NCBI RefSeq assembly: GCF_900182905.1
Contig: NZ_FXUF01000007.1
Location: forward strand, 1-64,000
Length of the DNA: 64,000 nt
Direction of reading: 5' to 3'
Source: Anoxynatronum buryatiense
GTDB taxonomy: Bacteria > Bacillota > Clostridia > Peptostreptococcales > Tindalliaceae
The notes under the pieces are model-generated. The model saw only the letters and a program-made list of their open reading frames with translations. It had not been told where the DNA came from and searched no databases. Positions 24,599-53,685 of this stretch are shown one piece after another (position 1 is the first letter of the stretch; every line of letters starts with the position of its first letter). Position numbers and translations under genes: made by a program.

Positions 24599-24949
24599 TT
24601 ACCATCTGCTTTTCAGTGCTGCCTTTGCCATGCTGATAAACTGCGGGCTGTTCAACGCGCTGTCGAACTTTCGTGTGCTGGGGTCAAAAAGTGTGCTGAT
24701 GCCTGACAACACATACCCGCCACCCACTTCGTTCAACGCTTCATCAGAAAGCTCGCCCTCTGTAAAGTGTACCGACTGGAGCAGGGCCTCCCGTAACAGC
24801 TCTATTTCTTTCAGGGTGAAGGTCATGCCTTCCCCTTCCAGCAGCAGCTGCACGCCTTCCGGCCTTTCCTGCTCCATCAGGGTAAGGAGCAATGCTTCGC
24901 TGTTTTCCAGTTTTTCTTTCAGTTCCAGCCATTTTTTCATTTCTGACAT
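24599..24949 (-). CDS. Nif11-type RiPP precursor a
   Basis: 116 residues from the ATG at 24949 (AGGAG six bases upstream; ATG 24952 is also possible). The leader is Nif11-like with 'EGVQLLLEGEGMTFTLKEIE' and ends 'ELSDEALNEVGGG'. The core is about 38 residues, starting YVLSGISTLFDPS and ending AKAALKSRW. It has seven Ser/Thr, no Cys and a C-terminal Trp. It is the last precursor gene of the island. Confidence 0.85.
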   Translation of the reverse strand: MSEMKKWLELKEKLENSEALLLTLMEQERPEGVQLLLEGEGMTFTLKEIELLREALLQSVHFTEGELSDEALNEVGGGYVLSGISTLFDPSTRKFDSALNSPQFISMAKAALKSRW

Positions 24950-25122
24950 CATTCTCTCCTTCCCTCTTTGCAATCATCCATGTAGTCATTTTCGTTTTCA
25001 CTGTATGAGGGACTCTTCGTTTTCCACGAACAGGTTGATCCCGAAAACGGCTCGGGGAGCTGTTTTCGGGATCACATGAGTGCTCACTTGTAAATAACAT
25101 CAGTTCTCTGTGTTCCGATGGT

Positions 25123-25461
25123 CTACCAGCGTTGCAACGTGCTGTGCAATGCTTTGCCCACATCAATAGATGTCACAAGGATTTTTGATATATTCTGAGC
25201 CGCTTTGTTTAAATCCACTTTCATTTCTGCTGTTCCGCCGGCAACCACTTCCAGATCTTCCTCTGAAAGCTCGCCCTGCATGTCTTTCATTTGTTGTGCC
25301 ATAAGCGCTCCCAATTGATCCACTTCTTCTTCGGTAAAGTCCAGTCCGGCTTCTTTCAGCACTGCCTGCACTTCTTTGGGATCTTCTTGCTGGGTCAGTT
25401 TTTTCACCAGTTCAGGGTTTGCCTCCATTTTCGCCTGCATTTGGTTCATTTTTTCCAACAT
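25123..25461 (-). CDS. Nif11-type RiPP precursor b
   Basis: 112 residues from the ATG at 25461 (AAAGGTGG seven bases upstream; longer in-frame starts lack a site). The leader has 'DPKEVQAVLKEAGLDFTEEE' and ends 'ELSEEDLEVVAGG'. The 36-residue core begins TAEMKVDLNKAAQ and ends HSTLQRW; no Cys, C-terminal Trp. Between it and lanM (25462-25594) lie two TATAAT-like hexamers on the minus strand without good -35 partners, so a separate promoter is possible but unproven. Confidence 0.85.
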   Translation of the reverse strand: MLEKMNQMQAKMEANPELVKKLTQQEDPKEVQAVLKEAGLDFTEEEVDQLGALMAQQMKDMQGELSEEDLEVVAGGTAEMKVDLNKAAQNISKILVTSIDVGKALHSTLQRW

Positions 25462-25594
25462 GTTGTTTCCACCTTTCCTGTTGTCATTTATGGTTGCACG
25501 GCAATTGCCCTTGGCCATCTGTGTAACTGCTGAATAACCCCTTATTCCACTATTTTCATTATATCTAAAAAGTCACCTGATTGCGCATTATATT

Positions 25595-28500
25595 TCAAAA
25601 AAACAGACTATGGATGCTTTTTTCCTCAGAAGCCCGTAGCAGGGTGTAGCCAATGCCAGCCATTCCCTTAAATAAAGAAGGATTCCAGAGATGGGTGTGG
25701 CGGCGGCGCAGCAGCTGGCGGCATGTTTTCCCTGAACCCTCGGCTGTCAGCCACCATTCTGCCACGCCGCTGTTGCCGCAGCACAGATCATCTGTCTGAA
25801 GCGGCTGGTATTGCTCAAGTATTGCTGCAATGCGGTTCATGTTGTTACGGCCGGTGTGTTTCATTTCTTCCCGGCCACATTTTTCCAGGCTTGCCCACAT
25901 CAGCCCCATGCCCGCAATACCGCTGCACAGGCTGAGGGGAATGGCTTCTTTTTTGGTGGATAGTTCTTCCAGCAAGGCGGCTTCTGCCCTGATGCCTTGC
26001 CCAATGATTTCTTCCACCTCTGGGCGGTTTCTTTTTTCGTTATAGCGAATCAACACCTGAAGGATGCCGCTTCGCGCCCCCATCCCCATACGCAGCACCG
26101 GAATTTCTCTGGCGGCTGTCTGCCCCACCTTTTTCACTGTTGACGGATCCCACCACTGGTTTTTTGCCCCCAGAATTCTTTCAACACAGTTGTCCATCAG
26201 TTCATCAGCGGTTCCGTCAGGCAAAAATGCCGCTGCCACCAGCAACCCATGTGCCAGCCCGGTCAGTCCTTCAAACCAGTTCCAGGTGGTGCATTTCCTG
26301 ATGGCTTCATGGGGAATGCCGCGAACCATCCTTTCAGCCGTCTCAAAGAATATTGGCTCTTCCAGGTATTCGCCCACTCTCACCAGTGTCAGTAACATCC
26401 CTCCCAGCCCATGGGCTGTTCCCATGGGCAACCGGTCTGTGGGGACAGCTCCGAGGGACTGCTTCAGTTCTTCGCAGAAGGGATTCATCAGCTTCAGTGC
26501 CTCTGTGTGTATCTCCGTCTCTCCTGTGGCTCTGAAACAGGCGGCCATTAAGAGGGCAACCCCCAACCGCCCATCGTACAGGGTGTCTCTCATGGGTGCT
26601 ATTTCGATGATTTGATTGCGCAAATTGTACTGATAAGTAAGGGAATGTGAAGAATCTCTCTTCTTTCTTTCCATTTGACGTCTCAGCTCCCGGCAGATGT
26701 TCATGGAGGCTTCTTTGAAAACCGCTTGATCTGCCTGATCTGCTTGATCTGCTGGAGTTGCTTGAACTGCTTGAGCTGCTATATTTGATTTAGCCATTGT
26801 ATGAACTGTATCTGGTGCATCCGTGGATGCACCCCCCTGTTTCACCGGTTTTTCATCTGCCCGCAGCACTGCCGTGCCTGCGGTGTGAGTGGTTTCATTC
26901 CTGATGTGCAAAGACGCCTGGATATAGGCCGTCTGTCGCTCTAAATCTTCCCTGTTCAGCCCTTTCATATGCTGCTCTGCCCGCTGAAGGGCTGTGTGGG
27001 TGAAATAATCGGCCACAAGGCAATCATGGGGATCATAGAGCCCTTTCTCGTCTGCATAGCCGCCGAAAATCGGCACATCACCCGCCTCCAGATGACGACA
27101 CTCTGCCTGAAACGCCGGCCAGTTTTTTGTCATCTCTGCAACAGTGGAATGCAGCAGGTAGGGGGCTGCCAGGCGTTCGGCTTCGGCGGAATAAAGAAAG
27201 CCGTCTTCCAGACACCGGGGGGAGGCCAGGCATGCCTGCAGTTGCGCGTATGTCCAGGTTTTGCGCATCACAAACCGCACCGGCACCTTTTTGCCCCGCA
27301 CTGTTTCTTCTGCCCATTGACAGATGGCAGCGCTGCCTTCCTTCATCAGAAATTCATATGCTTTTGTGAACCCCTCTAAGAATGCCTGCCGGTGGTCAAA
27401 AACCAACTCCCGTCTGCCATTGAAAACCGGCACACTTTCCCTGATGCTGCTGTTCAGGGAACTGCGGTCAACCCATGATTCCGCCGACTCCTGCAGCCAG
27501 ATTGGCAGGAATCCCAGGTTCAGCACAGAGGCTCCCTGCATGCCCTGGTCGCTCTGCGGTTCAATGGTGACGCCGTGGGAGATCACTGTTTCCAGGTCAA
27601 TGAGTACCGGGTGGGCACCGCAGGCAATGACATTTTCATCATGAAAATCGCAGCCCCCCATGGCGTAGACAAGGGCCAGCCACCCTCCCATCCGCTGGTA
27701 ATATGCCTTCGCTTCTCCACGGGATACAAGGCTGGTGTGCTTCACAAACTGTGCCCAGCCATGATCTCCGGCATTCACCGTTTTCGGTACTTTCAGCGTG
27801 TAGGGGAAGCCGCGTTTACCAAGTTGATCAAGCAACGACGTATAACAGCTGTCAATCAGCAAATTGCGTGGCTTGTAGACCAGCTGACGGCCAGATTCAC
27901 AAGTGAGCACCACCACGCTTTTTCCCCGGTCGTGGGTATCTCCCAGATTGCCGCTGATGCGTTGAATGGCTCCAAGGGGTTGTCCCTCATTCAGCGTCTT
28001 CTCCAGTTGTGGGAGGTTCTGGCGGTAGTGAGCCGCCAGTGCCGTCATGTTGGTGATCCAGTGATGGGCACTGATGGCCAAAAGTCTTGCCAGCACGGGA
28101 AATTCCACGAAAACTTCTTTCCAGCCCCCTGCCAGCAGGTGATCGGCAAAGAGGTGCAGGCAGTGTATCTGCTGTGTGTCATTCATCTGCCGCAGGTACT
28201 TCATGGATTCCCTGCGAAGCACAAAAATCTTGAAACATTGCGTCAGGGTGGCACTGCAGGTTTTCCGAAACGCATCCAGCAGCAGCCTGCTGCAGTCAGC
28301 GACTGCTTTTTCTGAAAAAAATGCCTCTTCATCAGGTCCCCAGGACTTCTTCAGCTGGTTTTCCAGGGTTCGAACCAACGGATAAAGCACGGTGATGCCT
28401 GTTTGCGCCTGAACCGCTGCCACTGACGGGTGTTCCCGGCCAATGTCTTGATCATCCCTGTCACTGTTTTCAGCCATATCTTCGTTACCGTCAGGAACTT

Positions 28501-28906
28501 TGTCTTTTCGACTTTTCTGGTGCGACTGCCAGAACGTTTCACTTTCCCGCTTCCATTCTTCTGGATTCAACACAGAAAGCCCTGACAACATCCTGTTAAC
28601 TGTCTCCATGTATGGGGGCAGCTCTCCTGGCCATTCGCCCTCGCCGTCTTTTTCTTCTTCGTTTCCTGTTTCTACCTCTCCCGCCAAACGAAGGGCCTCT
28701 TCCCAGGTGAGACCGTCCATTTTCAAGCGATTGTGAAAGCTTGTTTCACTGCCTCTGGCTGCCGCCTTCTTTTGCCAGAGGGCCAGTCGTTCCCGGCTGT
28801 TTTTCAAATTCTCCCTTTGTTTCCCTGTCTCATTTTCATTCATTCGTTCCCTGATAAACCGGGCCTTCAACGCCATTTTTCGCATTTCTGCCTCTGTCAG
28901 TCTCAT
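25595..28906 (-). CDS. lanM: LanM-type class II lanthionine synthetase, CCG clade
   Basis: 1103 residues. The N-terminal dehydratase half (DUF4135) shows 'RQLVYKPRNL', 'MGGWLALVYAMGGCDFHDEN' and 'PVLIDLETVI'. These are the lipid-kinase-like residues that phosphorylate Ser/Thr and eliminate phosphate to give Dha/Dhb. The C-terminal LanC-like cyclase has 'AHGLGGMLL', 'GLAHGL', 'SLCSGIAGMG' and 'DDLCCGNSG'. The zinc ligands are thus Cys, Cys, Cys instead of the usual Cys-Cys-His, as in the promiscuous ProcM. A Gln/Ala repeat linker (near 26730-26790) separates the halves. AGGAGG precedes the ATG, which overlaps the upstream gene by four bases. It probably serves all fifteen precursors. Confidence 0.93.
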   Translation of the reverse strand: MRLTEAEMRKMALKARFIRERMNENETGKQRENLKNSRERLALWQKKAAARGSETSFHNRLKMDGLTWEEALRLAGEVETGNEEEKDGEGEWPGELPPYMETVNRMLSGLSVLNPEEWKRESETFWQSHQKSRKDKVPDGNEDMAENSDRDDQDIGREHPSVAAVQAQTGITVLYPLVRTLENQLKKSWGPDEEAFFSEKAVADCSRLLLDAFRKTCSATLTQCFKIFVLRRESMKYLRQMNDTQQIHCLHLFADHLLAGGWKEVFVEFPVLARLLAISAHHWITNMTALAAHYRQNLPQLEKTLNEGQPLGAIQRISGNLGDTHDRGKSVVVLTCESGRQLVYKPRNLLIDSCYTSLLDQLGKRGFPYTLKVPKTVNAGDHGWAQFVKHTSLVSRGEAKAYYQRMGGWLALVYAMGGCDFHDENVIACGAHPVLIDLETVISHGVTIEPQSDQGMQGASVLNLGFLPIWLQESAESWVDRSSLNSSIRESVPVFNGRRELVFDHRQAFLEGFTKAYEFLMKEGSAAICQWAEETVRGKKVPVRFVMRKTWTYAQLQACLASPRCLEDGFLYSAEAERLAAPYLLHSTVAEMTKNWPAFQAECRHLEAGDVPIFGGYADEKGLYDPHDCLVADYFTHTALQRAEQHMKGLNREDLERQTAYIQASLHIRNETTHTAGTAVLRADEKPVKQGGASTDAPDTVHTMAKSNIAAQAVQATPADQADQADQAVFKEASMNICRELRRQMERKKRDSSHSLTYQYNLRNQIIEIAPMRDTLYDGRLGVALLMAACFRATGETEIHTEALKLMNPFCEELKQSLGAVPTDRLPMGTAHGLGGMLLTLVRVGEYLEEPIFFETAERMVRGIPHEAIRKCTTWNWFEGLTGLAHGLLVAAAFLPDGTADELMDNCVERILGAKNQWWDPSTVKKVGQTAAREIPVLRMGMGARSGILQVLIRYNEKRNRPEVEEIIGQGIRAEAALLEELSTKKEAIPLSLCSGIAGMGLMWASLEKCGREEMKHTGRNNMNRIAAILEQYQPLQTDDLCCGNSGVAEWWLTAEGSGKTCRQLLRRRHTHLWNPSLFKGMAGIGYTLLRASEEKSIHSLFF

Positions 28907-29658
28907 CGAGAACCTCCTGGAACATGGGTGTTTGCGGCAATGGCATCCATGAGGGACTGATAGCTTTCGTGGCTGAAGTAGCCATGTTCTTCCCAGAACC
29001 GGTATTCTGCCGGCTTCATCACCCTGCCCCTTATGATGCTTTCTTTCATGCCGTGAAACAGATTCTCCAGTCGGTCGTTTGAGACAAGGCGTTTTTCACC
29101 GGACAGATACTGGCTGATGACGGTGCCTCCCAGCTCTGCCTTCCTTTCAACGTCCTTCGGATTCTGAAATACTCCCGGAAACTGGGTGAATACGCTGTAC
29201 CCGCCCACGACCCGAACCCCCATGTACGCCATCACCCGAATCAAATAACCAAGCACTTCTGCTTCACCGGAGGAGGAGGTTGTGGTGAGGGCGATGCCAG
29301 GTTTTCCGGCCAGGCGAAACAGGTGAAGCCAGTAACTCAGCCGGTCAATCAGGGTTTTTGTCTGGCCGGAGACTTGAAGGGCGTACACAGGACTCCCCAG
29401 TATCACAAAATCAGCCTCCAGCAGTTTTTCTTTCATCAACCCGCCATCATCTTCCCTGTCCAGAAGACAGCTTCCCGTCCTGAAACAGTCACAACATCCA
29501 CGACATGCCTGTAATTGCAGCTGATCTGACGTCATTATCTCCCAGGTAACTTGCGTGTCACACACGGCCCCGGCTTTTTCACACATCTTTTCTGCCAGCT
29601 GCGCAGTGCCTGACTTCTGTCCCCGGTGACTGCCTATGTACGAAACTATTTTTTTCAC
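28903..29658 (-). CDS. Flavodoxin-fold NAD(P)H-dependent FMN reductase-type enzyme
   Basis: 251 residues, GTG start behind AAGGGGTG. The N-terminus has an FMN phosphate-loop-like 'IGSHRGQKSGTAQLAE'. The Cys-rich 'CRGCCDCFRTGSC' and 'DFVILGSPVYALQVSGQTK' are typical of iron-sulfur flavodoxin/NADPH-dependent FMN reductase relatives. The ~70-residue C-terminal part is less familiar. Its stop overlaps the lanM start (ATGA), so the two are co-translated. Position suggests peptide tailoring, for example reduction of dehydro-residues to D-amino acids; known lanthipeptide reductases (LanJ types) belong to other families, so this is inference. Confidence 0.8.
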   Translation of the reverse strand: MKKIVSYIGSHRGQKSGTAQLAEKMCEKAGAVCDTQVTWEIMTSDQLQLQACRGCCDCFRTGSCLLDREDDGGLMKEKLLEADFVILGSPVYALQVSGQTKTLIDRLSYWLHLFRLAGKPGIALTTTSSSGEAEVLGYLIRVMAYMGVRVVGGYSVFTQFPGVFQNPKDVERKAELGGTVISQYLSGEKRLVSNDRLENLFHGMKESIIRGRVMKPAEYRFWEEHGYFSHESYQSLMDAIAANTHVPGGSR

Positions 29659-29706
29659 AGCTTCACCCCTTCATGGGCCGACAGGTTAAGGACTGGCCTT
29701 GCTCTT

Positions 29707-29741
29707 GAAAAGAGCCAGAAGCATGGCTTTTGGCTCTTTTT
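29707..29741 (-). terminator. Intra-operon terminator or attenuator between precursor c and the modification genes
   Basis: AAAGAGCCA pairs with TGGCTCTTT, with an inner AAGC/GCTT stem, giving a 29-nt hairpin (29710-29738). The T run extends on both strands. It lies between the stop of precursor c and the start of the reductase-lanM pair. Partial readthrough would give more precursor than enzyme, a common arrangement in RiPP operons. Confidence 0.7.
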
Positions 29742-29768
29742 CAGTATGACTGATTGGCATATTTGTTG

Positions 29769-30098
29769 CTACCAACCGCCTTTGCCGGGTTTAACAGTCG
29801 GTTGTCCGCCGATCGTTACCGTCACCTGAGTGATAGGTATTAACCCCTGGTTAGTAAACCCAAAGCCACCTGCCACTTCTTCCAATTCACTCTCTGACAG
29901 TTCTTTTCCAGCGGCCTGTGCTTCCAGTGCTTTCAAGGTTGCTTCATATACCTGTTTGAGTTCTTCCAGTGTAAACTCCAGCCCCTTTTCTTTCAACAGG
30001 ACCTGTGCCTCTTCAGCGGTTTCTTTCATATACAGTTCCTTTGCAAAAACCTCATCTGCTTCCATTAACGATCTCAGCTTTTTCATTTTCTCTTCCAT
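29769..30098 (-). CDS. Nif11-type RiPP precursor c
   Basis: 109 residues from the ATG at 30098 (AGGAG eight bases upstream). Leader 'MEEKMKKLRSLMEADEVFAK' through 'AAGKELSESELEEVAGG'. The core is 31 residues from FGFTNQGLIPITQVTVT to KPGKGGW; five Thr, no Ser, no Cys, C-terminal Trp. It contains a second internal GG. Its leader is nearly identical to that of precursor d, so the two are recent duplicates with diverged cores. Confidence 0.88.
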   Translation of the reverse strand: MEEKMKKLRSLMEADEVFAKELYMKETAEEAQVLLKEKGLEFTLEELKQVYEATLKALEAQAAGKELSESELEEVAGGFGFTNQGLIPITQVTVTIGGQPTVKPGKGGW

Positions 30099-30404
30099 TA
30101 GTCCATCTCCTCTCGTTATGCTTTCCTTTTTCCGGCAGCCTGTCTGTCGCCGGTCATCGCCCGTTGGAGCCGTCACCACCTCCGATCATGAGCAAGGTTC
30201 CTCTGAAGTGCATTCTCCTCTGGAGGATCCCTTCACCTGAGAAGCAGCATCACTTTTTTCAATGCTTCCAAAATTGCTTGTCTCATTATCTTCTGATTAT
30301 CTATATTGTGATCTTCCGAAGAACCCCGACCAATTCGATCCACCTGTTAATTTGCCAGACAGGGGTGGGAGCCTTTTCTTTGCTCCCGGGTGATGATCAG
30401 TGTT
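30099..30404. other. 306 bp between precursors d and c
   Basis: No gene is seen. A six-bp stem GGGAGC/GCTCCC (30367-30387) follows precursor d on the minus strand but lacks a T run. A TATAGAT box near 30300 on the minus strand could be a -10 element for precursor c; no matching -35 is visible. Confidence 0.4.
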
Positions 30405-30740
30405 CTACCACCTGCCTCTAACGTCACCTGCTGCTGTCAGTTCATTTATGAGCGGCTTTCTATTTATCATGGAGTAGCTGTCGGGCTTCTGATACGGAGG
30501 GATATATCCGCCTGCCACTTCTTCCATGTCATTCTCCGACAGTTCATGACCGACAGCCTCTGCTTCCAGTGCTTTCAAGGTTGCTTCATATACCTGTTTG
30601 AGTTCTTCCAGCGTAAACTCCAGCCCTTTTTCTTTCAACAGTACCTGTACCTCTTCAGCCGTTTCCTGCATATACAGTTCTTTTGCAAAAACCTCATCTG
30701 CTTCCATCATTTCTCCCAGCTTTTTCATTTTCTCTTCCAT
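30405..30740 (-). CDS. Nif11-type RiPP precursor d
   Basis: 111 residues, 20 bp downstream of the radical SAM gene and behind an AAGGAGATG site. Leader 'MEEKMKKLGEMMEADEVFAK', ending 'ELSENDMEEVAGG'. The 33-residue core starts YIPPYQKPDSYSMINRKP and ends AAGDVRGRW. It has four Ser/Thr, three Tyr, three Arg, no Cys and a C-terminal Trp. Tight linkage to the radical SAM gene makes it the first candidate substrate of that enzyme. Confidence 0.88.
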   Translation of the reverse strand: MEEKMKKLGEMMEADEVFAKELYMQETAEEVQVLLKEKGLEFTLEELKQVYEATLKALEAEAVGHELSENDMEEVAGGYIPPYQKPDSYSMINRKPLINELTAAGDVRGRW

Positions 30741-30760
30741 GACTTCATCTCCTTAGTTTT

Positions 30761-31966
30761 TTATACTAATGAGCATTGATAGCCATGCCCTGCGGCACGG
30801 CATGGCAGGCAGTTTGCCTTCAGTTCACAGGCTTCACAACTGGCGTCCCGGTTTTCTTCGTGTTCCCGTAACCCTTTTAGAATGGGTGAATGTAGCCAGT
30901 ATGCTTGTAGACTGGGGTACGGCTCTGGTGTCATCACATGGCGGCAGGGAGTCCAGTTGCCGTCCACATCGAGTGCCGCTCCGTTTCTTCCGGCACCACA
31001 TCCTCTGTGAATCCCCTGGTTATGGTTGAAGAAAAATGATTTTCCAAGTTCTGCTCTCAAAGGGGAAAAACAGGGCTCCACCAGCACTGGCATGCTGTCT
31101 TTCTGGCGACGGCACTCTTTCAAATAGGCTGCCAGCTGCAGGAGACTCTCTTTTTTGATGGGTGCCTGGATGCTCATGGTCGCATCCGGTTTTGTTTCCA
31201 GAATCACCACGCCATCCATGTCATGAGCTTCTGCCAGTTTCACCAGGTCAGGAAAATCGGCGATGTTGTCTTCCCGTGCCACCCAATTGATGTAGGCTTT
31301 GGTTTCACCATCTTCTTGAAGCAACCGAAGGGCATTCATCGCTTCATGATAACCTTCCCGTGATAACCGGTTCACTGCCTCAGTGGATCCGTTCAGCGAC
31401 ACATACACATCATCAACACCTGCGGCTTTCAGCTGGCGCAAGCGTTCCCGGTCAAATCCCCAGCCACTGATGGCAATGGATGAAATCATTCCCAGGGCCC
31501 GGATCTTTCGCAGCAGCCGGTCCAGATGGGGGTAGGCCAGGGTTTCGCCGCCACTCAGGTTGATGTTGGGCACCTTCATCGCCGCTGCTTCCTCCAGGGC
31601 TTTTTCCGCTGTTTCCGGATTCAGGTCTCTTCCATTCTCCAGGGTGCAATAGCACTGGGGGCAGCGAAGGGGGCACCGGGTGGTCAGTTCCAGGTTGATG
31701 ACTTCCGGTGCTGTCATAGAGCGTTGGGGTGGTGAAACAGTTCTCGTGGCCTCAATGAGTGTTATATAGTGGAGACGTTCCTCCTGGGAGGGGTTTTCCG
31801 GCAGTCCAAAATCATCTATCAGTCGCTGCACCAGGGGATTGGACTCACCTGTTTCCAGCCACTGCCCCAGTTGATTCAGCTGAAGGGCCTGTACATAAAT
31901 GCAGTGACCTCCCGGCATCCGGTATGCCGCCAACATGTTCTTTTCCGAACGCCATATGGTATTCAT
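30761..31966 (-). CDS. Radical SAM/SPASM peptide maturase
   Basis: 401 residues behind AAAGGAG. An N-terminal ~85-residue region may bind the leader. The radical SAM core has the CX3CX2C cluster motif in 'TTRCPLRCPQCYC' and 'NLSGGETLAYPHL'. The SPASM domain has seven Cys ('RGCGAGRNGA', 'TPCRHV', 'CEACELKANCLPC', 'YQC'), for auxiliary clusters. Such enzymes attached to Nif11 precursors form C-C, thioether or other crosslinks. The known peptide epimerases usually lack this SPASM pattern, so epimerisation is less likely. A degenerate copy lies at 33455-33691. Confidence 0.9.
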   Translation of the reverse strand: MNTIWRSEKNMLAAYRMPGGHCIYVQALQLNQLGQWLETGESNPLVQRLIDDFGLPENPSQEERLHYITLIEATRTVSPPQRSMTAPEVINLELTTRCPLRCPQCYCTLENGRDLNPETAEKALEEAAAMKVPNINLSGGETLAYPHLDRLLRKIRALGMISSIAISGWGFDRERLRQLKAAGVDDVYVSLNGSTEAVNRLSREGYHEAMNALRLLQEDGETKAYINWVAREDNIADFPDLVKLAEAHDMDGVVILETKPDATMSIQAPIKKESLLQLAAYLKECRRQKDSMPVLVEPCFSPLRAELGKSFFFNHNQGIHRGCGAGRNGAALDVDGNWTPCRHVMTPEPYPSLQAYWLHSPILKGLREHEENRDASCEACELKANCLPCRAAGHGYQCSLV

Positions 31967-32036
31967 CTCTCAGGTCTCCTTTTCTTAATGAGATCATTTC
32001 GCGCTCTTTTGTCGTGGTGTGTTGAAGGTTGCCCTT

Positions 32037-32321
32037 CTACCATGTTAGATGCATCCTCATTCTTATTCTCCTTGGTCCCTCCCCCATTGATCCGCCAGCC
32101 ACTCTATCCAGGTTCTCTTCAGATAGTTCGCCTGTTTCTGAGGGTGTGATGGATGTGATCAATGCTTCCCTTGCTGCATTTATTTCTTCAATGGTCATCT
32201 CCACATCGTTTTCTTTTAGAAAAACCTGTACCTCTTCCGGCGTTTCCAGCTGGAACAACTTTTCAGCCAACTGCTCATCCGCTTCCAGTTTCTGTTGTAA
32301 CAATCTCAATTTATCTTCCAT
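32037..32321 (-). CDS. Nif11-type RiPP precursor e
   Basis: 94 residues from the ATG at 32321, spaced six bases from AAAGGTGG; the earlier ATG 32327 abuts the site. The leader ends 'ELSEENLDRVAGG'. The core is SMGEGPRRIRMRMHLTW: four Arg, no Cys, C-terminal Trp. It lies 70 bp upstream of the radical SAM gene. Core and flanks are paralogous to precursor h through a block duplication. Confidence 0.88.
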   Translation of the reverse strand: MEDKLRLLQQKLEADEQLAEKLFQLETPEEVQVFLKENDVEMTIEEINAAREALITSITPSETGELSEENLDRVAGGSMGEGPRRIRMRMHLTW

Positions 32322-32358
32322 ATTCATCCACCTTTCACTTCTTATGATGGCTGCCTTT

Positions 32359-32640
32359 TTACCATATGATATAATATCCAGGTGTCTTCGGTGACTTATG
32401 TCCCCGATATCCCCCAGCCACGTTATCCAGGTCCTCCTCAGATAATTCGCCTGCTTCTGAAGGCGCGACAGTTCTGTTCAAAATATCCCTTGCTGCAATA
32501 ATTTCTTCAATGGTCATCTCCAGGCTGTTTTCCTTTAATAAAACCTGTACCTCTTCCGGGGTTTCCTGCTGGAACAGCTTTTCAGCCAACTGCTCTTCGG
32601 CTTCCAGCTTTCGAAATAACCATTTCAATTTTTCTTCCAT
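32359..32640 (-). CDS. Nif11-type RiPP precursor f
   Basis: 93 residues behind the shared GTGAAAGGTGGATGAA leader sequence. The leader peptide ends 'ELSEEDLDNVAGG'. The core is YRGHKSPKTPGYYIIW: one Ser and one Thr, three Tyr, no Cys, C-terminal Trp. Confidence 0.88.
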   Translation of the reverse strand: MEEKLKWLFRKLEAEEQLAEKLFQQETPEEVQVLLKENSLEMTIEEIIAARDILNRTVAPSEAGELSEEDLDNVAGGYRGHKSPKTPGYYIIW

Positions 32641-32713
32641 TCTTCATCCACCTTTCACTTTTTATATGGTCTCATGTCTGTTCTTGGTGCCAGACTACAC
32701 CCGCATTTGTTGC

Positions 32714-32986
32714 TTACCACCTTCCAACGGGGTGTTCTCTACCAGATCCAAAACCCGTACCACCTGCCACATTATCCAGGTCTTCCTTTGATAGTTCCGC
32801 TTCATCGGTCACCATGAATTTTGCCACAGTCGCCTCAAGTTGTTTTATTTCTTCCATATCAAATATCATGCCTTCTGCCGCCAACACAGTTTGAGCTTCT
32901 TCAGCGGTTTCCTGAGAAAAAAGTTTTTCCGCCAATACCGGATCTTCTTTCAGTTTTTTCATCAGCATGGTTGATTTGTCTTCCAT
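32714..32986 (-). CDS. Nif11-type RiPP precursor g
   Basis: 90 residues, ATG behind AAAGGGGGC. The leader 'MEDKSTMLMKKLKEDPVLAE' is shared with precursor l and ends 'ELSKEDLDNVAGG'. The core is TGFGSGREHPVGRW: two Arg, no Cys, C-terminal Trp. It is the shortest core in the set. Confidence 0.88.
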   Translation of the reverse strand: MEDKSTMLMKKLKEDPVLAEKLFSQETAEEAQTVLAAEGMIFDMEEIKQLEATVAKFMVTDEAELSKEDLDNVAGGTGFGSGREHPVGRW

Positions 32987-33073
32987 TTTTCAGCCCCCTT
33001 TCTACTTGTGTTTTGGTTAACAACTAAGATGTTACACTACCTTGGTCCCGGTACCCAGCCTGATTCTCTGTCA

Positions 33074-33454
33074 CTAAACGGCCTTGCCTTCTGGTATCAT
33101 TTCAAGAGACAGGTGGGGATGGTCTTTTTGAAGGATCCGGGCAATTTGATTTTTTGTGTCAATGATCTCTTTTTTCAGGTAACTGGGTTGATAGGTTGTA
33201 ATGTATACCAGAATGATATACTGGCTGCCATTTTTACTGATAAACACGTCTTCCACTAAGATGTGTGTTGGCATATTTTGATGCACCACTTCTTCGAAAT
33301 AGCTACGTTTATCATGATCTTGCAAAGTTCCGCCGGCCATTTCGATTAATGAATTCTTAATAATGGCCACAGGTTCTTTGATGAGCAGGGTAGTCAGAAA
33401 TAGTACAAATATGGAGTCTGCTAAATAGGGAATAAAATCACCACCCAGTTCAGC
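33074..33454 (-). pseudogene. Remnant of a cation-diffusion-facilitator transporter C-terminus
   Basis: The frame reads 'ADSIFVLFLTTLLIKEPVAI', then 'QNMPTHILVEDVFISKNGSQ' and 'ILQKDHPHLSLEMIPEGKAV'. This resembles the last transmembrane helix and cytoplasmic domain of a CDF metal transporter. There is no N-terminal membrane region and no own start, and upstream it is joined to a radical SAM remnant. It is likely a decayed insertion between precursor genes. Confidence 0.55.
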
Positions 33455-33691
33455 TCCTCCTGGCATGCTGTCTTTTTGGCGACGGCGCTCTTTCAAGTAG
33501 GCTGCCAGCTTATCAGTCGCTGCACCAGGGGATTGGACTCCCCTATTTCCAGCCACTGCCCCAGTTGATTCAGCTGAAGGAGACGCAAATAGCTGAATTG
33601 ACCTCCCGGCATCCGGTATGCCGCCAACATGTTCTTTTCCGAACGCCCTATGGTTTTCCTCTCTCAGGTCTCCTTTATTTAATGAGATCAT
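33455..33691 (-). pseudogene. Degenerate copy of the radical SAM gene 5' region
   Basis: Nucleotides match two parts of the radical SAM gene: 33460-33511 matches 31085-31136 (encoding 'AAYLKECRRQKDSMP'), and 33512-33680 matches about 31817-31990 (start region and ribosome binding site). The central radical SAM core is deleted and the frame is shifted. The match continues past the start into the precursor next to it (e versus h), so the unit duplicated was radical SAM plus precursor. Confidence 0.85.
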
Positions 33692-33730
33692 TTCATACTC
33701 TTTTGTTGTGGTGTGTTGAAGGTTGCCCTT

Positions 33731-34009
33731 CTACCATGGTATATGAATCATTCTTCTCCTTGGTACATCCCCTGTGGATCCGCCAGCCACTCTATCCAGG
33801 TTCTCTTCAGACAATTCGCCTGTTTCTGAGGGTGTGATGGATGTAATTAATGCTTCCCTTGCTGCATTTATTTCTTCAATCGTCATGTCAAATCCGTTTT
33901 CTTTCAACAAAGCCTGTACCTCTTCCGCTGTTTCCAGCTGAAACAGCTTTTCAGCCAGCTTTTCATCCGCTTCCAGTTTCTGTTTTAACAACATCATTTT
34001 ATCTTCCAT
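33731..34009 (-). CDS. Nif11-type RiPP precursor h
   Basis: 92 residues. The leader 'MEDKMMLLKQKLEADEKLAE' ends 'ELSEENLDRVAGG', identical to that of precursor e over its last 20 or so residues. The core is STGDVPRRRMIHIPW: three adjacent Arg, one Ser, one Thr, no Cys, C-terminal Trp. Confidence 0.88.
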   Translation of the reverse strand: MEDKMMLLKQKLEADEKLAEKLFQLETAEEVQALLKENGFDMTIEEINAAREALITSITPSETGELSEENLDRVAGGSTGDVPRRRMIHIPW

Positions 34010-34100
34010 TTTTCATCCACCTTTCACCTTTTGTATCAACACATGTCTGGTACTCCTTCATCGCCATTTAAGGGCTGATGATTTAATCGGCAGTTACTTT

Positions 34101-34418
34101 TTACCAGCGCTTTCCCTTTGCTTCTGTAACGTATGCAGTGGATCCGACCGCCATTAATGCAAGGGCAAGCCCCAGCATCCAGAAAAACCCGCCTGTTACT
34201 TCTTCCAGATCTTCTTCGGATAATTCGCTTTCTTCAGAGCGTTCCATGGCTTTGATCAAGGCTTCCCTCACTGTATTGATTTCTTCAAGAGTCATCTCCA
34301 CATCGTTATCTTTTAGAAGAACCTGTACCTCTTCCGCTGTTTCCAGCTGAAACAGCTTTTCAGCCAGCTTTTCATCCGCTTCCAGTTTCTGTTTTAACAA
34401 CATCATTTTATCTTCCAT
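34101..34418 (-). CDS. Nif11-type RiPP precursor i (hydrophobic core)
   Basis: 105 residues. The leader ends 'ELSEEDLEEVTGG'. The 28-residue core begins FFWMLGLALALMAVGST and ends TEAKGKRW. It is a likely membrane helix with a basic-Trp end; no Cys. The 90 bp on its 3' side and the 90 bp before its start are near-identical copies (34020-34110 and 34430-34520), showing recent tandem duplication with precursor j. Confidence 0.88.
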   Translation of the reverse strand: MEDKMMLLKQKLEADEKLAEKLFQLETAEEVQVLLKDNDVEMTLEEINTVREALIKAMERSEESELSEEDLEEVTGGFFWMLGLALALMAVGSTAYVTEAKGKRW

Positions 34419-34509
34419 TTTTCATCCACCTTTCACCTTTTGTATCAACACATGTCTGGTACTCCTTCATCGCCATTTAAGGGCTGATGATTTAATCGGC
34501 AGTTACTTT

Positions 34510-34827
34510 TTACCAGCGCTTTCCATTCGCACTCATCGTCAGTTGAGTCAAACCAGCAGCACACGCTATAGCAAGGATCATGCTTATGAGGAAAACACCA
34601 CCGGTCACTTCTTCCAGATCTTCTTCGGATAATTCCCCTTCTTCAGAGCGTTCCATGGCTTTGAGCAAGGCTTCCCTCACTGTATTAATTTCTTCAATGG
34701 TCAAATCCACGCCGTTTTCTTTTAAAAGAGCCTGTACCTCTTCCGGTGTTTCCTGCTGCATCAGCTTTTCAACCAACTGCTCATCCGCTTCCAGTTTCTG
34801 TTTTAACAACATCATTCTTTCTTCCAT
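34510..34827 (-). CDS. Nif11-type RiPP precursor j (hydrophobic core, one Cys)
   Basis: 105 residues. The leader ends 'ELSEEDLEEVTGG'. The 28-residue core begins VFLISMILAIACAAGLTQ and ends MSANGKRW. One Cys lies between Ser/Thr residues, so a single lanthionine ring is possible. C-terminal Trp. It lies 14 bp downstream of the UPF0489 gene. Confidence 0.88.
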   Translation of the reverse strand: MEERMMLLKQKLEADEQLVEKLMQQETPEEVQALLKENGVDLTIEEINTVREALLKAMERSEEGELSEEDLEEVTGGVFLISMILAIACAAGLTQLTMSANGKRW

Positions 34828-34841
34828 TTTTCATCCACCTT

Positions 34842-35819
34842 TCACTTTTCGCCAGGCTGCTGCCTGGTCTGCAAACAGCCTTCTTCGCTGACAAGAAACA
34901 AATGAAGTGGTATTACCTTCATAGAATAAATCTCTCTCAGCGCTTTCAGCAACTTGGTTTCAATCTGCCGCCACTGATCCTCTGGTGTATAACCGGACAT
35001 GCGGGAACGGCAAAGGGTTATTAATAGGGGTTTTAATTGATTGCGGCTTAAAAAATCCTTTAGTTTTCCAATGCGTCGTTCAATCACAGACTCAGATACT
35101 TTTAACAGCTCCGGTATTTCCTGAAATTCTTCGTAGGAGAGGTAATACCGGCTGTGGTCTCCCTCTCCCTCCCGATGGGCTGAAAGAGCCGCCGCAGGCA
35201 ACAGGCGCATGGGGTGATAAGGGTTTTCCTGGTACTCCCGGTAAGCTTCTGCGGTTATTTCAATACGGGTTTCTGCTGACGAGAGTCCATTGTCGCAGGA
35301 GAAAATATCCAAATCGATGTCCAGGATCAGCGGCCGGTGGGTTTGATAGTCGCTGGTGGTTTGAAGCTGAATGTACCGGTAAAAGCTGTGGTTTCCCCAC
35401 TTGCTTTCCGGGTTTTCCAGCACCCGCCGCAGCATGGGTGTTACCTCACCGGATGTGAAGTGGCATCCTTGGGATTTCCAGGAAACAACACTGCGCCAGG
35501 TGTCCGATGCGTTGCCAATGCCAAACCCTTTCAACCAGGCCATTTCTCCCAGCAGGCCCTGGTAGAGCTGGGGTGTAATGAAATTGGCAATACCCAGGTT
35601 CTGGTATGTATAGTCCACGATGCCCTGGGAATCTTCCGGCAGGTCATGGATGGAGGTGGGGATTCCGCCTTGTACCAGATCGTCATGGGTGTCTGTGTGC
35701 AGCAGTGCGTTGCCGGCAGGAGGAATGATGCCTCTCCCGGAAGCTTCCTGCCAAACAGTAAATGCCTGATGATGTTCCTCAATGATGATGAGGGGAATCG
35801 GGTTCTGCCTATGGTGCAT
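34842..35819 (-). CDS. UPF0489-family protein, candidate peptide arginase
   Basis: 325 residues from the ATG at 35819, spaced about seven bases from AGGGGTG; GTG 35828 is a poorer start. Motifs of the arginase/deacetylase fold are visible: 'LHTDTHDDL' near residue 45 and 'LILDIDLDIFSCD' in the middle, both plausible Mn-binding Asp/His clusters. UPF0489 includes OspR, the peptide arginase of the landornamide pathway, which turns core Arg into ornithine and works beside a LanM and a radical SAM enzyme. Several cores here are Arg-rich (e, h, d, g), which fits. Activity is inferred from family and context. A shrunken copy lies at 36590-36795. Confidence 0.8.
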   Translation of the reverse strand: MHHRQNPIPLIIIEEHHQAFTVWQEASGRGIIPPAGNALLHTDTHDDLVQGGIPTSIHDLPEDSQGIVDYTYQNLGIANFITPQLYQGLLGEMAWLKGFGIGNASDTWRSVVSWKSQGCHFTSGEVTPMLRRVLENPESKWGNHSFYRYIQLQTTSDYQTHRPLILDIDLDIFSCDNGLSSAETRIEITAEAYREYQENPYHPMRLLPAAALSAHREGEGDHSRYYLSYEEFQEIPELLKVSESVIERRIGKLKDFLSRNQLKPLLITLCRSRMSGYTPEDQWRQIETKLLKALREIYSMKVIPLHLFLVSEEGCLQTRQQPGEK

Positions 35820-35891
35820 TGTCATCACCCCTGTGTGGATTTGTTGTTCAGCCAGGTTTTATTCGTCACCAGCGCCGTCCCTTATTGCTTT

Positions 35892-36209
35892 TTACCAGCG
35901 CATTCTATTCGCACTCATCGTCAGTTGAGTCATACCAGCAGTACACACTAAAGCAAGGATCATGCTTATGAGGAAAACACCACCGGTTACTTCTTCCAGG
36001 TCTTCTTCGGATAATTCCCCTTCTTCAGAGCGTTCCATGGCTTTGAGCAAGGCTTCTCTCACTGTATTGATTTCTTCAAGAGTCATCTCCACGTTGTTTT
36101 CTTTTAAAAGAGCCTGTACCTCTTCCGATGTTTCCTGCTGCATCAGCTTTTCAACCAACTGCTCATCCGCTTCCAGTTTCTGTTTTAACAACATCATTCT
36201 TTCTTCCAT
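35892..36209 (-). CDS. Nif11-type RiPP precursor k (hydrophobic core, one Cys)
   Basis: 105 residues, nearly identical to precursor j in leader and core. The core begins VFLISMILALVCTAGMTQ and ends MSANRMRW. One Cys, C-terminal Trp. It lies on the other side of the UPF0489 gene, so j and k flank it like products of one duplication. Confidence 0.88.
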   Translation of the reverse strand: MEERMMLLKQKLEADEQLVEKLMQQETSEEVQALLKENNVEMTLEEINTVREALLKAMERSEEGELSEEDLEEVTGGVFLISMILALVCTAGMTQLTMSANRMRW

Positions 36210-36298
36210 TTTTCATCCACCTTTCACTTTTTATATGGTCTCATGTCTGTTGTTGTGTCATGGCGATCTTGGTGCCAGACTACACCATCATCTGTTGC

Positions 36299-36574
36299 TT
36301 ACCAACTTCCCCTGGTAAAAACGACACTACCGTATTCAAAACCCGTACCACCTGCCACGTTATCCAGGTCTTCCTCTGATATTTCCTCTTCATCGGTCAC
36401 CATTGATTTTGCCACAATCGCAGCAAGCTGTTTTATTTCTTCCATGTTAAACATCATGCCTTCTGCCGCCAGCACAGTTTGGGCTTCTTCAGCGGTTTCC
36501 TGAGAAAAAAGTTTTTCCGCCAATACCGGATCTTCTTTTAGTTTTTTCATCAGCATGGTTGATTTGTCTTCCAT
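36299..36574 (-). CDS. Nif11-type RiPP precursor l
   Basis: 91 residues. The leader 'MEDKSTMLMKKLKEDPVLAE' matches precursor g and ends 'EISEEDLDNVAGG'. The core is TGFEYGSVVFTRGSW: two Ser and two Thr, no Cys, C-terminal Trp. The gene pairs g-f and l-k share intergenic sequence. Confidence 0.88.
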   Translation of the reverse strand: MEDKSTMLMKKLKEDPVLAEKLFSQETAEEAQTVLAAEGMMFNMEEIKQLAAIVAKSMVTDEEEISEEDLDNVAGGTGFEYGSVVFTRGSW

Positions 36575-36589
36575 TTTTCATCCACCTTT

Positions 36590-36795
36590 CACTTTTCACA
36601 AGGCTGCTGCCTGGTCTGCAAACAGCCTTCTCCGCTGGCAAGAAACAATTGTAGGTGAGGTAATACCGGCTGTGGTCTCCCTCTCCCTCCCGATGGGCTG
36701 AAAGAGCCGTCGCAGGAAAAAACATCCAAATCGATGTCCAGGATCAGCGGCCGGTGGATTTGATAGTCGCTGTTGGAACGCTCTTTTCTTGGCAC
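36590..36795 (-). pseudogene. Deletion copy of the UPF0489 gene
   Basis: The 3' end, a mid part (near 36655-36710, matching 35140-35200) and the 'LILDIDLD' segment (near 36720-36770, matching 35290-35350) of the gene at 34842 are joined, with the rest lost. It sits directly upstream of precursor l exactly as the intact gene sits upstream of precursor j. It cannot encode an active enzyme. Confidence 0.85.
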
Positions 36796-36884
36796 TTCTC
36801 CATTTGCTTCGTTTAACTCTATTGAGGTTTATGGGCTGTTACTCCATCGTGGTGATTTGGGATAACGTCACTGTTATGACTCTT

Positions 36885-37214
36885 TTACCAACGTCCTTTT
36901 GTAAACATATTGGTGACAGTTGTGCCAGTGGCTAGAGCAACAAAAATCCCACACAGTGCCAATACACCGTAAGCGAAAAAGATGCCACCTGTTACTTCTT
37001 CCAAGTCCTCTTCTGACAATTCGCCTTCTGTCATGCGGTCCAGCATTTTCAGTATGGCTTCTCTTATTTCATTAATTTCTTCAATGGTCAAATTCACATC
37101 GTTTTCTTTTAAAAGAGCCTGTACCTCTTCCGGTGTTTCCTGCTGCATCAGCTTTTCAACCAACTGCTCATCCGCTTCCAGTTTCTGTTGTAATAATTTC
37201 AATTTTTCTTCCAT
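36885..37214 (-). CDS. Nif11-type RiPP precursor m (hydrophobic core, one Cys)
   Basis: 109 residues from the ATG at 37214, six bases from AAAGGTGG. The leader ends 'ELSEEDLEEVTGG'. The 32-residue core begins IFFAYGVLALCGIFVALA and ends NMFTKGRW. It has five Thr, one Cys and a C-terminal Trp. It belongs to the membrane-helix-like class with i, j and k. Confidence 0.88.
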   Translation of the reverse strand: MEEKLKLLQQKLEADEQLVEKLMQQETPEEVQALLKENDVNLTIEEINEIREAILKMLDRMTEGELSEEDLEEVTGGIFFAYGVLALCGIFVALATGTTVTNMFTKGRW

Positions 37215-37316
37215 ATTCATCCACCTTTCACTTTTTATATGGTCTCATGTCTGTTGTTCTGTCATGGCGATTTTGGTGCTCTTTGGATATTTAAACCCCA
37301 GGACTGGTCTTTGTCA

Positions 37317-38651
37317 TCATTGTTGGGAGTTGCTGTTCAGCCAGGTTTTTTTCAGATAAGGCGGCAGGTTGATCTCCCAGGGTTTCTGGCTTGTCTCGCT
37401 GGTCTTTACCGTGTCCGTTTCAATAAAACAGGGCCGCCAGTGAGTGGGTACTTCTCCTTCAAAGGTTTCACTGAAAACAGTTTCACCTTCATTCAGACAC
37501 CTGTTGCGAAAGTCCTGGTCAAGCATGGCTTTTGTCATTAGCTGCTTCATGTTTTCCTGGGTCTGGCGTTGCCAGTGGCGGTAGGCTGCCGTGCCTTTCG
37601 CCATCTCCTGATTTCTTTCCGCTGCCTCCCGGGCGAGGCGTTTCTTTTGAAGCTGCTTTTTAATGGAAACTGCCAGGGTCTGCAGGTAGACCTTTGCTGT
37701 GAGGGGTTGGCCCTCCTGCTGTGTCAGTTTAAAGTGGGATATTCTGTTGATCAGGGCGCAATAACCTGCTTCCTTGCCCATGAACTGCCCCCGGGTTCCT
37801 TTCCATGACAGCAGGATCTCCTTCTTTTCTTGTGTGCACAGGCCTGCTTTGATGAGCTCTTCCAGAAAGGCATGGAGATTTTCGGGGGAAGTCACACCAA
37901 AATTAATGCCCAGTTTTGGGTGTACGCCTTCTTCTGCCACATCCACATCCAGGATGAATCTGCCGTCGCTATGGTGCTTGGTGAGGTTGTTGAGGGAGGC
38001 CACATCCGGCGGAGTTCCTTTCCATTGCAGGCCTTCTGTCCAGGTCATTGCCTGTTCCCAGCTCATTTCTGCGGTGAACAGCCGCAGGCGGTCCTGGTGA
38101 CGGGCCAACATGGTGCCCATCTGAAAAACCGTCACTTCTTCCGGCAGGGAAGAAAGGGTGTGCAGTAATGTGTTTTCCATTTTTCCAACAGCCGGGTTAT
38201 CCAGCAGCATTGACAGGCTGGGGCGCAGCAGTGGCTGGTGCATGCCTCTTCGGGGGTGAACACCGCTGCCGTCGTAAAAGAAGCAGGGCGGGGGAAGAGG
38301 CTGTTCGTAGGCGGTCTGGTCCATTTCAATCCACACTTCCGCCACCTCTGCCGGCCACCCACGGCAAAAGCTTATGAGTCGCTGCCAGCTGTCAGCTTCT
38401 GCCATTTTGTCGAAGGCGGGGCTTGAAAATGCCTGAATCATTGCAGGTGCCTCTTCTGCCAACACGCGAAAAGAAATGTCTGCTCTGCCGGCCTGGTCAT
38501 TTAAATTGGTTTCTGCGATGACTTCGCTGGTCTGAAAACCGGCAAAGGATTCGCTTAATCGTTGTATGTGTCTGGCCGTATCTGTGGAGAACAGATTCTC
38601 CGGTGCCTGTGATACAGTTATTTTCAGTAAATCCCCCACGTCTACGGGCAT
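37317..38651 (-). CDS. Unassigned island protein with NHLP-leader-like C-terminus
   Basis: 444 residues from the ATG at 38651 (AAAGGAG seven bases upstream). I do not recognise the first ~340 residues. They contain 'AEVWIEMDQTAYEQPLPPPC', 'GRFILDVDVAEEGVHPKLGI' and 'KVYLQTLAVSIKKQLQKK'. Residues about 370-420 ('NMKQLMTKAMLDQDFRNRCL', then 'VPTHWRPCFIE') resemble the NHLP leader, the piece related to nitrile hydratase alpha subunit. It has no GG end there, so it is not a simple precursor. It may recognise leaders or be a new modifying enzyme. It lies between precursors n and m. Confidence 0.6.
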   Translation of the reverse strand: MPVDVGDLLKITVSQAPENLFSTDTARHIQRLSESFAGFQTSEVIAETNLNDQAGRADISFRVLAEEAPAMIQAFSSPAFDKMAEADSWQRLISFCRGWPAEVAEVWIEMDQTAYEQPLPPPCFFYDGSGVHPRRGMHQPLLRPSLSMLLDNPAVGKMENTLLHTLSSLPEEVTVFQMGTMLARHQDRLRLFTAEMSWEQAMTWTEGLQWKGTPPDVASLNNLTKHHSDGRFILDVDVAEEGVHPKLGINFGVTSPENLHAFLEELIKAGLCTQEKKEILLSWKGTRGQFMGKEAGYCALINRISHFKLTQQEGQPLTAKVYLQTLAVSIKKQLQKKRLAREAAERNQEMAKGTAAYRHWQRQTQENMKQLMTKAMLDQDFRNRCLNEGETVFSETFEGEVPTHWRPCFIETDTVKTSETSQKPWEINLPPYLKKTWLNSNSQQ

Positions 38652-38755
38652 TGAAATGCTCCTTTCCTGACAACTCTCCATCGCTCGATTCAACTCGTAT
38701 GCGACACTATTAGTGACACTACCTACGTTCCCTGGAAGTTACCCGCTATAAAGAG

Positions 38756-39031: not shown

Positions 39032-39124
39032 GACTTCTTCCTCCTTTTTTCTGCTTCGAAGCCTTCTTGCCCTCCGTCCCCACGTTACCATCCAGCTCAC
39101 CTATCCAAACACGGTTTTTTTGCT

Positions 39125-49462: not shown

Positions 49463-49553
49463 GGGCTGCCTCCTGTCAATGAAGCACATCGTCCTTTTTA
49501 ACCGTTAAAAACTGATGCCTGAACAAAAACGTCGAAAAAGTTCCCGGTTACCC

Positions 49554-53548: not shown

Positions 53549-53685
53549 GGTTATCACTCCATTCATTGATGCTCATCAGGCTGACCGCTTCTGATTTCAA
53601 CCTGCTCTCCGCTTCTTCAAGACATTGGCAAGCCCTGTTCATCAAAACGCTTTATGACACTTCGAAATATGTTTATCAAAAACGC

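Follow-up and report, generated by a model that had tools for sequence, protein, structure and literature searches.

Association of a C-terminal tryptophan in Nif11-leader peptide precursors with a radical SAM enzyme in Anoxynatronum buryatiense and related gene clusters

Precursor array of the locus

The window analysed in this study is a stretch of 64,000 nucleotides of Anoxynatronum buryatiense (contig NZ_FXUF01000007.1, positions 1 to 64,000 of the forward strand). It carries a cluster for ribosomally synthesized and post-translationally modified peptides (RiPPs) with precursors bearing Nif11-type leaders, a radical SAM enzyme designated rSAM1, a protein designated unk458, a peptide arginase-like protein, a lanthipeptide synthetase and exporter genes (Table 1). 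The subject of this work is the tryptophan (Trp) with which most of these precursors end, and its association with rSAM1 across genomes.

Fifteen precursor open reading frames (ORFs), a to o, were confirmed between positions 24599 and 39487, all on the minus strand. Re-reading of the ORFs bore out the original prediction that 13 of the 15 end in Trp: in a to m the last codon is TGG, followed by TAA or TAG; the last residue is Cys in n and Ala in o. The start codons taken for a, b, c and n were over-extended; internal ATGs behind a ribosome-binding-like sequence fit better, and the proteins then begin with MMSEMKK, MLEKMNQ, MEEKMKK and MSVKIF, respectively. Every precursor of the window has a leader-end motif before GG, followed by the core, and by sequence these proteins can be classed as Nif11-leader RiPP precursors. 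Many of them scored above the cut-off of TIGR03798 (Nif11 leader), and a, i, k, n and o below it.

Trp makes up 1.5% of the residues in the 28 other proteins of the window, none of which ends in Trp. The leaders of e/h, g/l, i/j/k and m are related and some 3′ flanks are common, so that the 13 precursors are not independent and represent about 8–10 distinct core families; the chance of at least 13 Trp ends in 15 is ~2e-22, or ~3e-15 if only 8 independent core families are counted. Precursor n groups by its leader with the non-Trp precursors C15 and C22 of its own genome and belongs to another leader group, leaving o as the only true exception.

Two orphan precursors of the same genome, located outside the cluster and with leaders like those of c and d, also end in Trp. 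The first, C3 (L038:8583-8915), ends in PFPW and lies within a type IV pilin-like operon. The second, C2 (L039:8808-9164), ends in IRSGSW, and its core has the segment VRPEGFEPPTTP, resembling a translated tRNA fragment; no tRNA was called at this region. Within the window, decayed second copies of the rSAM1 N-terminus and of the arginase were observed at 33493-33691 and 36639-36795, which shows that modules of precursor and enzyme had undergone duplication followed by decay.

Conservation of the terminal tryptophan in other genomes

Relatives of rSAM1 were sought by a contig scan with rSAM1 as query, which placed them in Syntrophomonas, other Syntrophomonadaceae, Clostridia and Desulfotomaculum metagenome-assembled genomes, and then by whole-genome searches, which added more. 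Some genome handles are doubled, as judged from match coordinates (G660 is G382, G478 is G341 and G704 is G373). In 13 genomes, 43 of 43 Nif11 precursors assigned to rSAM1 end exactly in Trp, with no residue ever after it; the window contributes a to m, n and o being set aside, and counting o gives 43/44. Systems with the same enzymes and cores not ending in Trp, which would have spoken against the original prediction, were thus not found among the assigned precursors, and the observation proved stronger than first stated.

The cores range from 10 to 43 amino acids, from GDCYGVRLSW to 43-residue hydrophobic-basic peptides, and Trp occurs at only three of their other 1198 residues. No position except the last is conserved. 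The penultimate residue is Arg in 24 precursors, Gly in 5, Lys in 5, Ser in 3, Ile in 2, and Thr, Pro, Asn and Gln in one each.

Duplicated precursors of the window retained the Trp while their cores changed: g and l are 89% identical (amino acids) in the leader and 37% in the core, and h and i 75% and 12%. Cores thus diverge far faster than leaders while the Trp stays, which argues for selection on the last residue. Shared descent alone, in which the Trp codon and stop would have been copied with the 3′ end during cassette duplication and left unselected, draws on the 3′ flanking DNA shared by g/l, e/h and i/j, and part of the retention among these duplicates is indeed copying. As the whole explanation it is highly improbable, since at least eight unrelated 3′ flanks remain in the window, and the Trp persists there and in twelve other genomes while cores have been remade.

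An even sample of 399 genomes served as the phylum control. Trp ends were found in 11 of 11 Nif11 precursors in genomes with rSAM1 (own genome excluded) versus 1 of ~22 without it, with a Fisher value of 6e-8 that overstates the strength of the association because the leaders share ancestry, as a result of which the 43 precursors are not 43 independent events either. The single Trp case without rSAM1, in G515, has a Trp-clade leader in a genome 78% complete. Within the 63-genome class of G337, Trp ends were 18 of 19 with rSAM1 versus 2 of 9 without. On the leader tree, for which support is rough and columns are few, the Trp label needs 4 changes versus 18.2 in shuffles.

In one further rSAM1 cluster, that of G429 (L030/L142), the genes for unk458 and DUF7005 carry frameshifts and a Nif11 precursor was not found; this cluster is apparently decaying or poorly assembled.

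Genes accompanying the terminal tryptophan

rSAM1 was found in every genome with linked Trp-ending precursors and is the only cluster gene present in all 13. The minimal cluster, in G548, comprises six Trp-ending precursors, a fusion of unk458 with rSAM1 (L140:10434-12443), exporter genes and a substrate-binding protein, and has no arginase, GNAT, DUF7005 or LanM gene. Candidate causes of the Trp were rejected accordingly: GNAT and DUF7005 are absent from this cluster; the arginase is absent from G337, G382 and G548, all of which keep the Trp; LanM was seen in the window cluster only, and a second LanM of the same genome (L042) pairs with a precursor ending in FTK; and unk458, as a sole cause, is absent from the whole genomes G342, G343 and G552, where precursors end in FRGW. 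More distant rSAM1-like genes, at ~33% identity (L061, L062), have no Nif11 gene nearby and belong to a different system.

The exporter was rejected likewise. Exporter genes occur in every complete cluster, the minimal one included, as would be expected if the Trp were a signal for the C39/NHLM exporter or protease and not a site of maturation. Nevertheless, related C39 and NHLM subunits serve Nif11 precursors without terminal Trp in G704 and G431 (L148, L146), both without rSAM1, and NHLP precursors within the rSAM1 clusters themselves end in ..WNWPLK, ..WKWPKK and similar sequences. An exporter mark, one of the options raised originally, is therefore disfavoured and appears very unlikely. 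Since arginase, LanM, GNAT and exporter can each be separated from the Trp and rSAM1 cannot, the Trp follows rSAM1.

The Trp could also serve only the activity of the mature peptide, as a membrane interface anchor or receptor contact, and be read by no enzyme. Many cores are hydrophobic and basic, and a terminal Trp suits an interfacial membrane anchor. On the other hand, short polar cores of 10–17 residues also keep it, and it tracks rSAM1 across genomes and not the type of core. A general anchor function, as proposed earlier, is a poor fit for a set of cores that includes both GDCYGVRLSW and hydrophobic helices of 30 residues, and we consider this explanation quite unlikely.

Characterization of rSAM1

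The AlphaFold model of rSAM1 (mean predicted local distance difference test, pLDDT, 72) has an N-terminal domain of three strands and three helices, similar to a RiPP recognition element (RRE). The best Foldseek matches were SuiB, SkfB and PqqE, with SuiB covering nearly the full length, RRE included. The protein has the CxxxCxxC motif and further cysteines downstream, and SPASM was matched weakly in the homologue L140; with the RRE, predicted from the model only, rSAM1 can be assigned to the SPASM radical SAM peptide maturases. It scores against the PqqE, NirJ and mycofactocin models.

These scores, the SPASM-type architecture and the strictly last position of the Trp are consistent with an oxidative decarboxylation or desaturation of the C-terminal Trp by rSAM1, a special case of modification by this enzyme for which MftC, acting on the C-terminal Tyr of MftA, is a precedent for a C-terminal aromatic residue. 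However, rSAM1 reaches only 68.8 bits against the mycofactocin model TIGR03962 (cut-off 265), cores end in xW and contain no Val-Tyr, and in structure rSAM1 is matched best by SuiB, which crosslinks Lys to Trp. Such a reaction is possible, but doubtful.

A crosslink of the Trp by the radical SAM enzyme was the chemistry named in the original prediction; it could join the Trp to an upstream core residue, with the Lys-Trp bond made by SuiB as a model. In addition to the structural match with SuiB, Lys or Arg is common near the C-terminus of the cores. Even so, no residue is conserved at a fixed distance from the Trp, the penultimate position admits Gly, Pro, Ile and Ser, and the cores GDCYGVRLSW and YRGHKSPKTPGYYIIW have no spacing in common. 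The absence of a fixed partner, together with the tolerance of Gly and Pro, argues against a general side-chain crosslink, which finds no support here and is unlikely; it points instead to a modification limited to the Trp itself or to its carboxylate, or else to a reading of the C-terminus.

Other radical SAM enzymes were observed in related clusters. In most of these, a second radical SAM enzyme, ~507 amino acids long and with a TPR tail, is encoded alongside an NHLP-type precursor; the nearest model of this enzyme is TIGR04103, below cut-off. The NHLP-type precursors (L028:3178-3606, L074:9573-9914, L075:8675-9067, L083:12890-13288 and similar) often have cores ending near G-W-x-W-P. The window shows neither such a precursor nor the ~507-residue enzyme. 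In G382, a third radical SAM enzyme (L071:2293-3630) lies beside rSAM1 and is near the Clo7bot maturase model (442.7 bits, cut-off 600).

Characterization of the partner protein unk458

Searches of unk458 against Pfam, NCBIfam, PHROGs and PDB sequences gave only a weak NHLP match of its C-terminal part (E 0.0014); prenyltransferases were not matched in Pfam, in NCBIfam or among PDB sequences. The NHLP leader-like part occurs alone in L141 (11951-12199). The structural model is poor (mean pLDDT 48), and its secondary structure reads as five alpha-beta-beta-alpha (ABBA) repeats. ABBA prenyltransferases were 10 of the 50 Foldseek rows shown (DMATS1, AmbP3, 6-DMATS, FamD1, CloQ, EpzP), several of them indole enzymes; indole prenyltransferases are the best match of this weak model, with E-values of 0.7–7, none significant. 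The ABBA reading is a lead, not an assignment.

Prenylation of the indole by unk458, which would read the free C-terminal Trp while rSAM1 modifies something else, is likewise a special case of reading by the rSAM1 unit. The predicted repeats, the indole enzymes among the matches and the fusion in G548 speak for it, as does the precedent of PalQ, an enzyme of a different fold in which a C-terminal extension of the substrate abolishes activity (PMC10853753). The E-values, the poor model, the lack of sequence matches and the Trp-keeping genomes without unk458 speak against it, and it may be regarded as a tentative possibility.

Peptide arginase, penultimate arginine and GNAT-like protein

The arginase-like protein of the window matched PF12640 above its cut-off and NF052474 with an E-value of 1.6e-70 (237.9 bits, below the cut-off of 350); by sequence it resembles the UPF0489-type arginases of the OspR, FlmR and OhkR pathways. 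Penultimate Arg was found in 23 of 33 precursors from arginase clusters versus 0 of 9 from clusters without arginase (Fisher 2e-4, a value that ignores shared descent); G339 was excluded from this count due to its short contig. Arg made up 9.3% of core residues in arginase clusters versus 2.5% in those without. The arginase, rejected as the cause of the Trp, accounts instead for the penultimate Arg, and the restriction of this residue to arginase clusters suggests a C-terminal ornithine-Trp (Orn-Trp) end. The window arginase thus probably makes Orn beside or near the Trp.

Among the linked loci with sufficient flanking sequence, only that of G548 lacks the GNAT-like gene. Pfam support for the family is weak (PF13527, 0.0079 in the homologue L071).

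Proposed maturation pathway

Taken together, we consider it probable that the terminal Trp is read, and most likely also modified, by rSAM1, with or without unk458. The cluster would produce a family of Nif11-leader RiPPs in which only the core can vary, set between a constant leader and a constant C-terminus, the Trp being the address for the rSAM1 unit (rSAM1 and unk458 in most genomes, fused in one). The N-terminal recognition domain of rSAM1 would first bind the Nif11 leader, and the free C-terminal Trp would enter the active site. Radical chemistry confined to the Trp might follow, for example an oxidative modification of the C-terminus such as MftC performs, and/or, in clusters with unk458, prenylation of the indole. 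In arginase clusters, a nearby Arg, often the penultimate residue, would be converted to Orn, which the GNAT-like protein may acylate. Finally, the C39 exporter would cleave after GG and secrete the peptide. Of the options raised originally, a modification site or enzyme recognition mark is supported insofar as the Trp follows rSAM1 across genomes; any chemistry on the Trp is putative.

Several observations weigh against assigning the Trp to rSAM1. Precursor o has a Trp-clade leader and lies inside the cluster without a terminal Trp; loss by frameshift was rejected, since the downstream frames, read by eye, yield no terminal Trp. Trp-ending Nif11 genes without rSAM1, with other leaders, occur in G377 and G345. 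The rSAM1 of the G342/G343/G552 group has no N-terminal domain (the relatives that lack it include L032, L033 and L141), and as these genomes keep the Trp without unk458, this partner is not the only reason for it. The shared ancestry of the leaders also counts here. Moreover, rSAM1 could read the Trp and yet act elsewhere.

More speculatively, and rather improbably, rSAM1 and unk458 may form a new maturase unit, a SPASM enzyme and an ABBA-fold prenyltransferase both reading a free C-terminal Trp whatever the core; together with arginase and GNAT this unit would give nearly every Nif11 core a uniform Trp end that is lipidated and contains ornithine. If only the leader and last residue are read, a core-independent C-terminal editing system would exist in nature, which could serve to attach tags or lipids to peptides at one Trp introduced genetically. 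The association would give a so far unassigned radical SAM family a defined substrate residue, and the fusion ties the uncharacterised unk458 to rSAM1.

Other genes of the cluster

The features of the cluster are detailed in Table 1. The LanM protein has C-x-G and CCG motifs at residues 994 and 1042, which suggest an all-Cys zinc site. No LanM match was seen in rSAM1 clusters of other genomes. Cys occurs in the cores of only j, k and m (and n), and most Trp-ending cores, lacking it, do not have the composition of lanthionine cores. Of the precursors, n looks the most suitable as a substrate of this LanM, since it has five Ser/Thr and ends in Cys.

The DUF7005 protein has an HExxH motif and then a possible third ligand (HEATHYV..LLDEMVADYRG), and is possibly a peptidase or an HExxH-type peptide-modifying enzyme. 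The ABC_sub_bind protein matched NF041285 (TrpX) at 6.9e-9, below cut-off; its gene lies directly after rSAM1 in most relatives (L028:11212-12405) and 21 kb away in the window. This TrpX-like protein might bind the Trp-ended peptide or Trp. In related clusters, the neighbour of an ECF-type sigma factor gene codes for a small protein (L115:32-277, L033:3693-3944) whose end, ELADDDLDMVAGG, is like that of a precursor; this protein is perhaps an exported regulator.

Table 1. Features of the precursor cluster in the window.
Feature	Position	Strand	Evidence
Precursor a, Nif11-type leader, core ends ..ALKSRW	24599..24973	-	TIGR03798 E 4.6e-4, below cut-off
Precursor b, core ends ..STLQRW	25123..25518	-	TIGR03798 44.8 bits
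Class II lanthipeptide synthetase LanM	25595..28906	-	TIGR03897 497.5 bits, cut-off 304
Flavodoxin-like FMN reductase, CxxCxxCx5C motif	28903..29658	-	PF03358 8e-18
Precursor c, core ends ..GKGGW	29769..30179	-	ORF
Precursor d, core ends ..DVRGRW	30405..30740	-	ORF
rSAM1, predicted N-terminal RRE-like domain, radical SAM core (CPLRCPQC), SPASM-type cysteines	30761..31966	-	PF04055 1.9e-20
Precursor e, core SMGEGPRRIRMRMHLTW	32037..32327	-	ORF
Precursor f, core YRGHKSPKTPGYYIIW	32359..32640	-	ORF
Precursor g, core TGFGSGREHPVGRW	32714..32986	-	ORF
Precursor h, core STGDVPRRRMIHIPW	33731..34009	-	ORF
Precursor i, hydrophobic core ..AKGKRW	34101..34418	-	ORF
Precursor j, hydrophobic core ..ANGKRW	34510..34827	-	ORF
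Peptide arginase-like protein (UPF0489; OspR/FlmR-type)	34842..35828	-	PF12640 48.5 bits, cut-off 27
Precursor k, hydrophobic core ..ANRMRW	35892..36209	-	ORF
Precursor l, core TGFEYGSVVFTRGSW	36299..36574	-	ORF
Precursor m, hydrophobic core ..FTKGRW	36885..37220	-	ORF
unk458, N-terminal five-repeat alpha-beta-beta-alpha domain (putative ABBA prenyltransferase-like), C-terminal NHLP-like domain	37317..38693	-	
Precursor n, other leader group, core ends ..VSRLC, no Trp	38756..39100	-	ORF, leader tree
Precursor o, Trp-clade leader, core ends ..DKKQA (exception)	39125..39487	-	ORF, leader tree
NHLM-type ABC transporter subunit 2	39639..42560	-	TIGR03797 969 bits
C39 peptidase ABC transporter (GG cleavage and export)	42576..44798	-	TIGR03796 1120.8 bits; PF03412
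HlyD-like exporter subunit, kept in relatives	44811..46238	-	
Branched-chain amino acid-type substrate-binding protein, kept in relatives	46251..47414	-	PF13458 4.7e-42
GNAT-like protein, candidate N-acyltransferase	47411..48253	-	motif by eye, homologues
DUF7005 protein, HEATH motif, kept in most relatives	48332..49489	-	PF22541 4.6e-108
MFS protein, extra N-terminal domain, kept in relatives	49554..52079	-	PF07690 1.8e-30
ABC_sub_bind substrate-binding protein, weakly TrpX-like	52382..53566	-	PF04392 1.1e-11

Comparison with known systems

Literature searches on C-terminal Trp gave PalQ and SrpI, and no paper describing this gene set was found in the literature searched. PalQ of Paenibacillus alvei is a C-terminal Trp prenyltransferase; its RiPP precursor PalX has a conserved C-terminal Trp, which PalQ needs exactly at the C-terminus (PMC10853753). 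It differs in being isoprenoid-synthase-like and in acting on an NHLP precursor from a three-gene cluster without a radical SAM enzyme (PMC10853753), whereas in the window the leaders are of Nif11 type and occur with rSAM1 and an ABBA-like candidate, and no isoprenoid-synthase-fold domain of the PalQ/ComQ type was reported among the cluster proteins scanned. The brominase SrpI similarly modifies the C-terminal Trp of SrpE in a leader-dependent manner (PMC12615548). It is a flavin halogenase, an enzyme not found among the cluster proteins scanned.

In mycofactocin biosynthesis, MftC is a radical SAM enzyme of the SPASM type, and its target is the invariant aromatic residue at the C-terminus of MftA (PMC5682303). 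By contrast, rSAM1 is far below the cut-off of that family, and its system has many divergent precursors in which the residue before the aromatic one is unfixed. The predicted fold of rSAM1 (RRE, radical SAM core and SPASM) resembles SuiB of the streptide pathway and PqqE, from which the system differs in cores without fixed Lys/Trp or Glu/Tyr spacing.

Among the selidamide and ornithine RiPPs, phaeornamide combines an OspR-like arginase, LanM, GNAT and a peptidase-type exporter (PMC9505594), a set resembled by the arginase-like protein, LanM, GNAT-like protein and exporter of the window. Phaeornamide and landornamide use NHLP leaders (PMC9505594); the terminal Trp, rSAM1 and unk458 are additional in the rSAM1 clusters, and LanM is shared by the window only. 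The system varies an established RiPP logic and is not a new kind of system.

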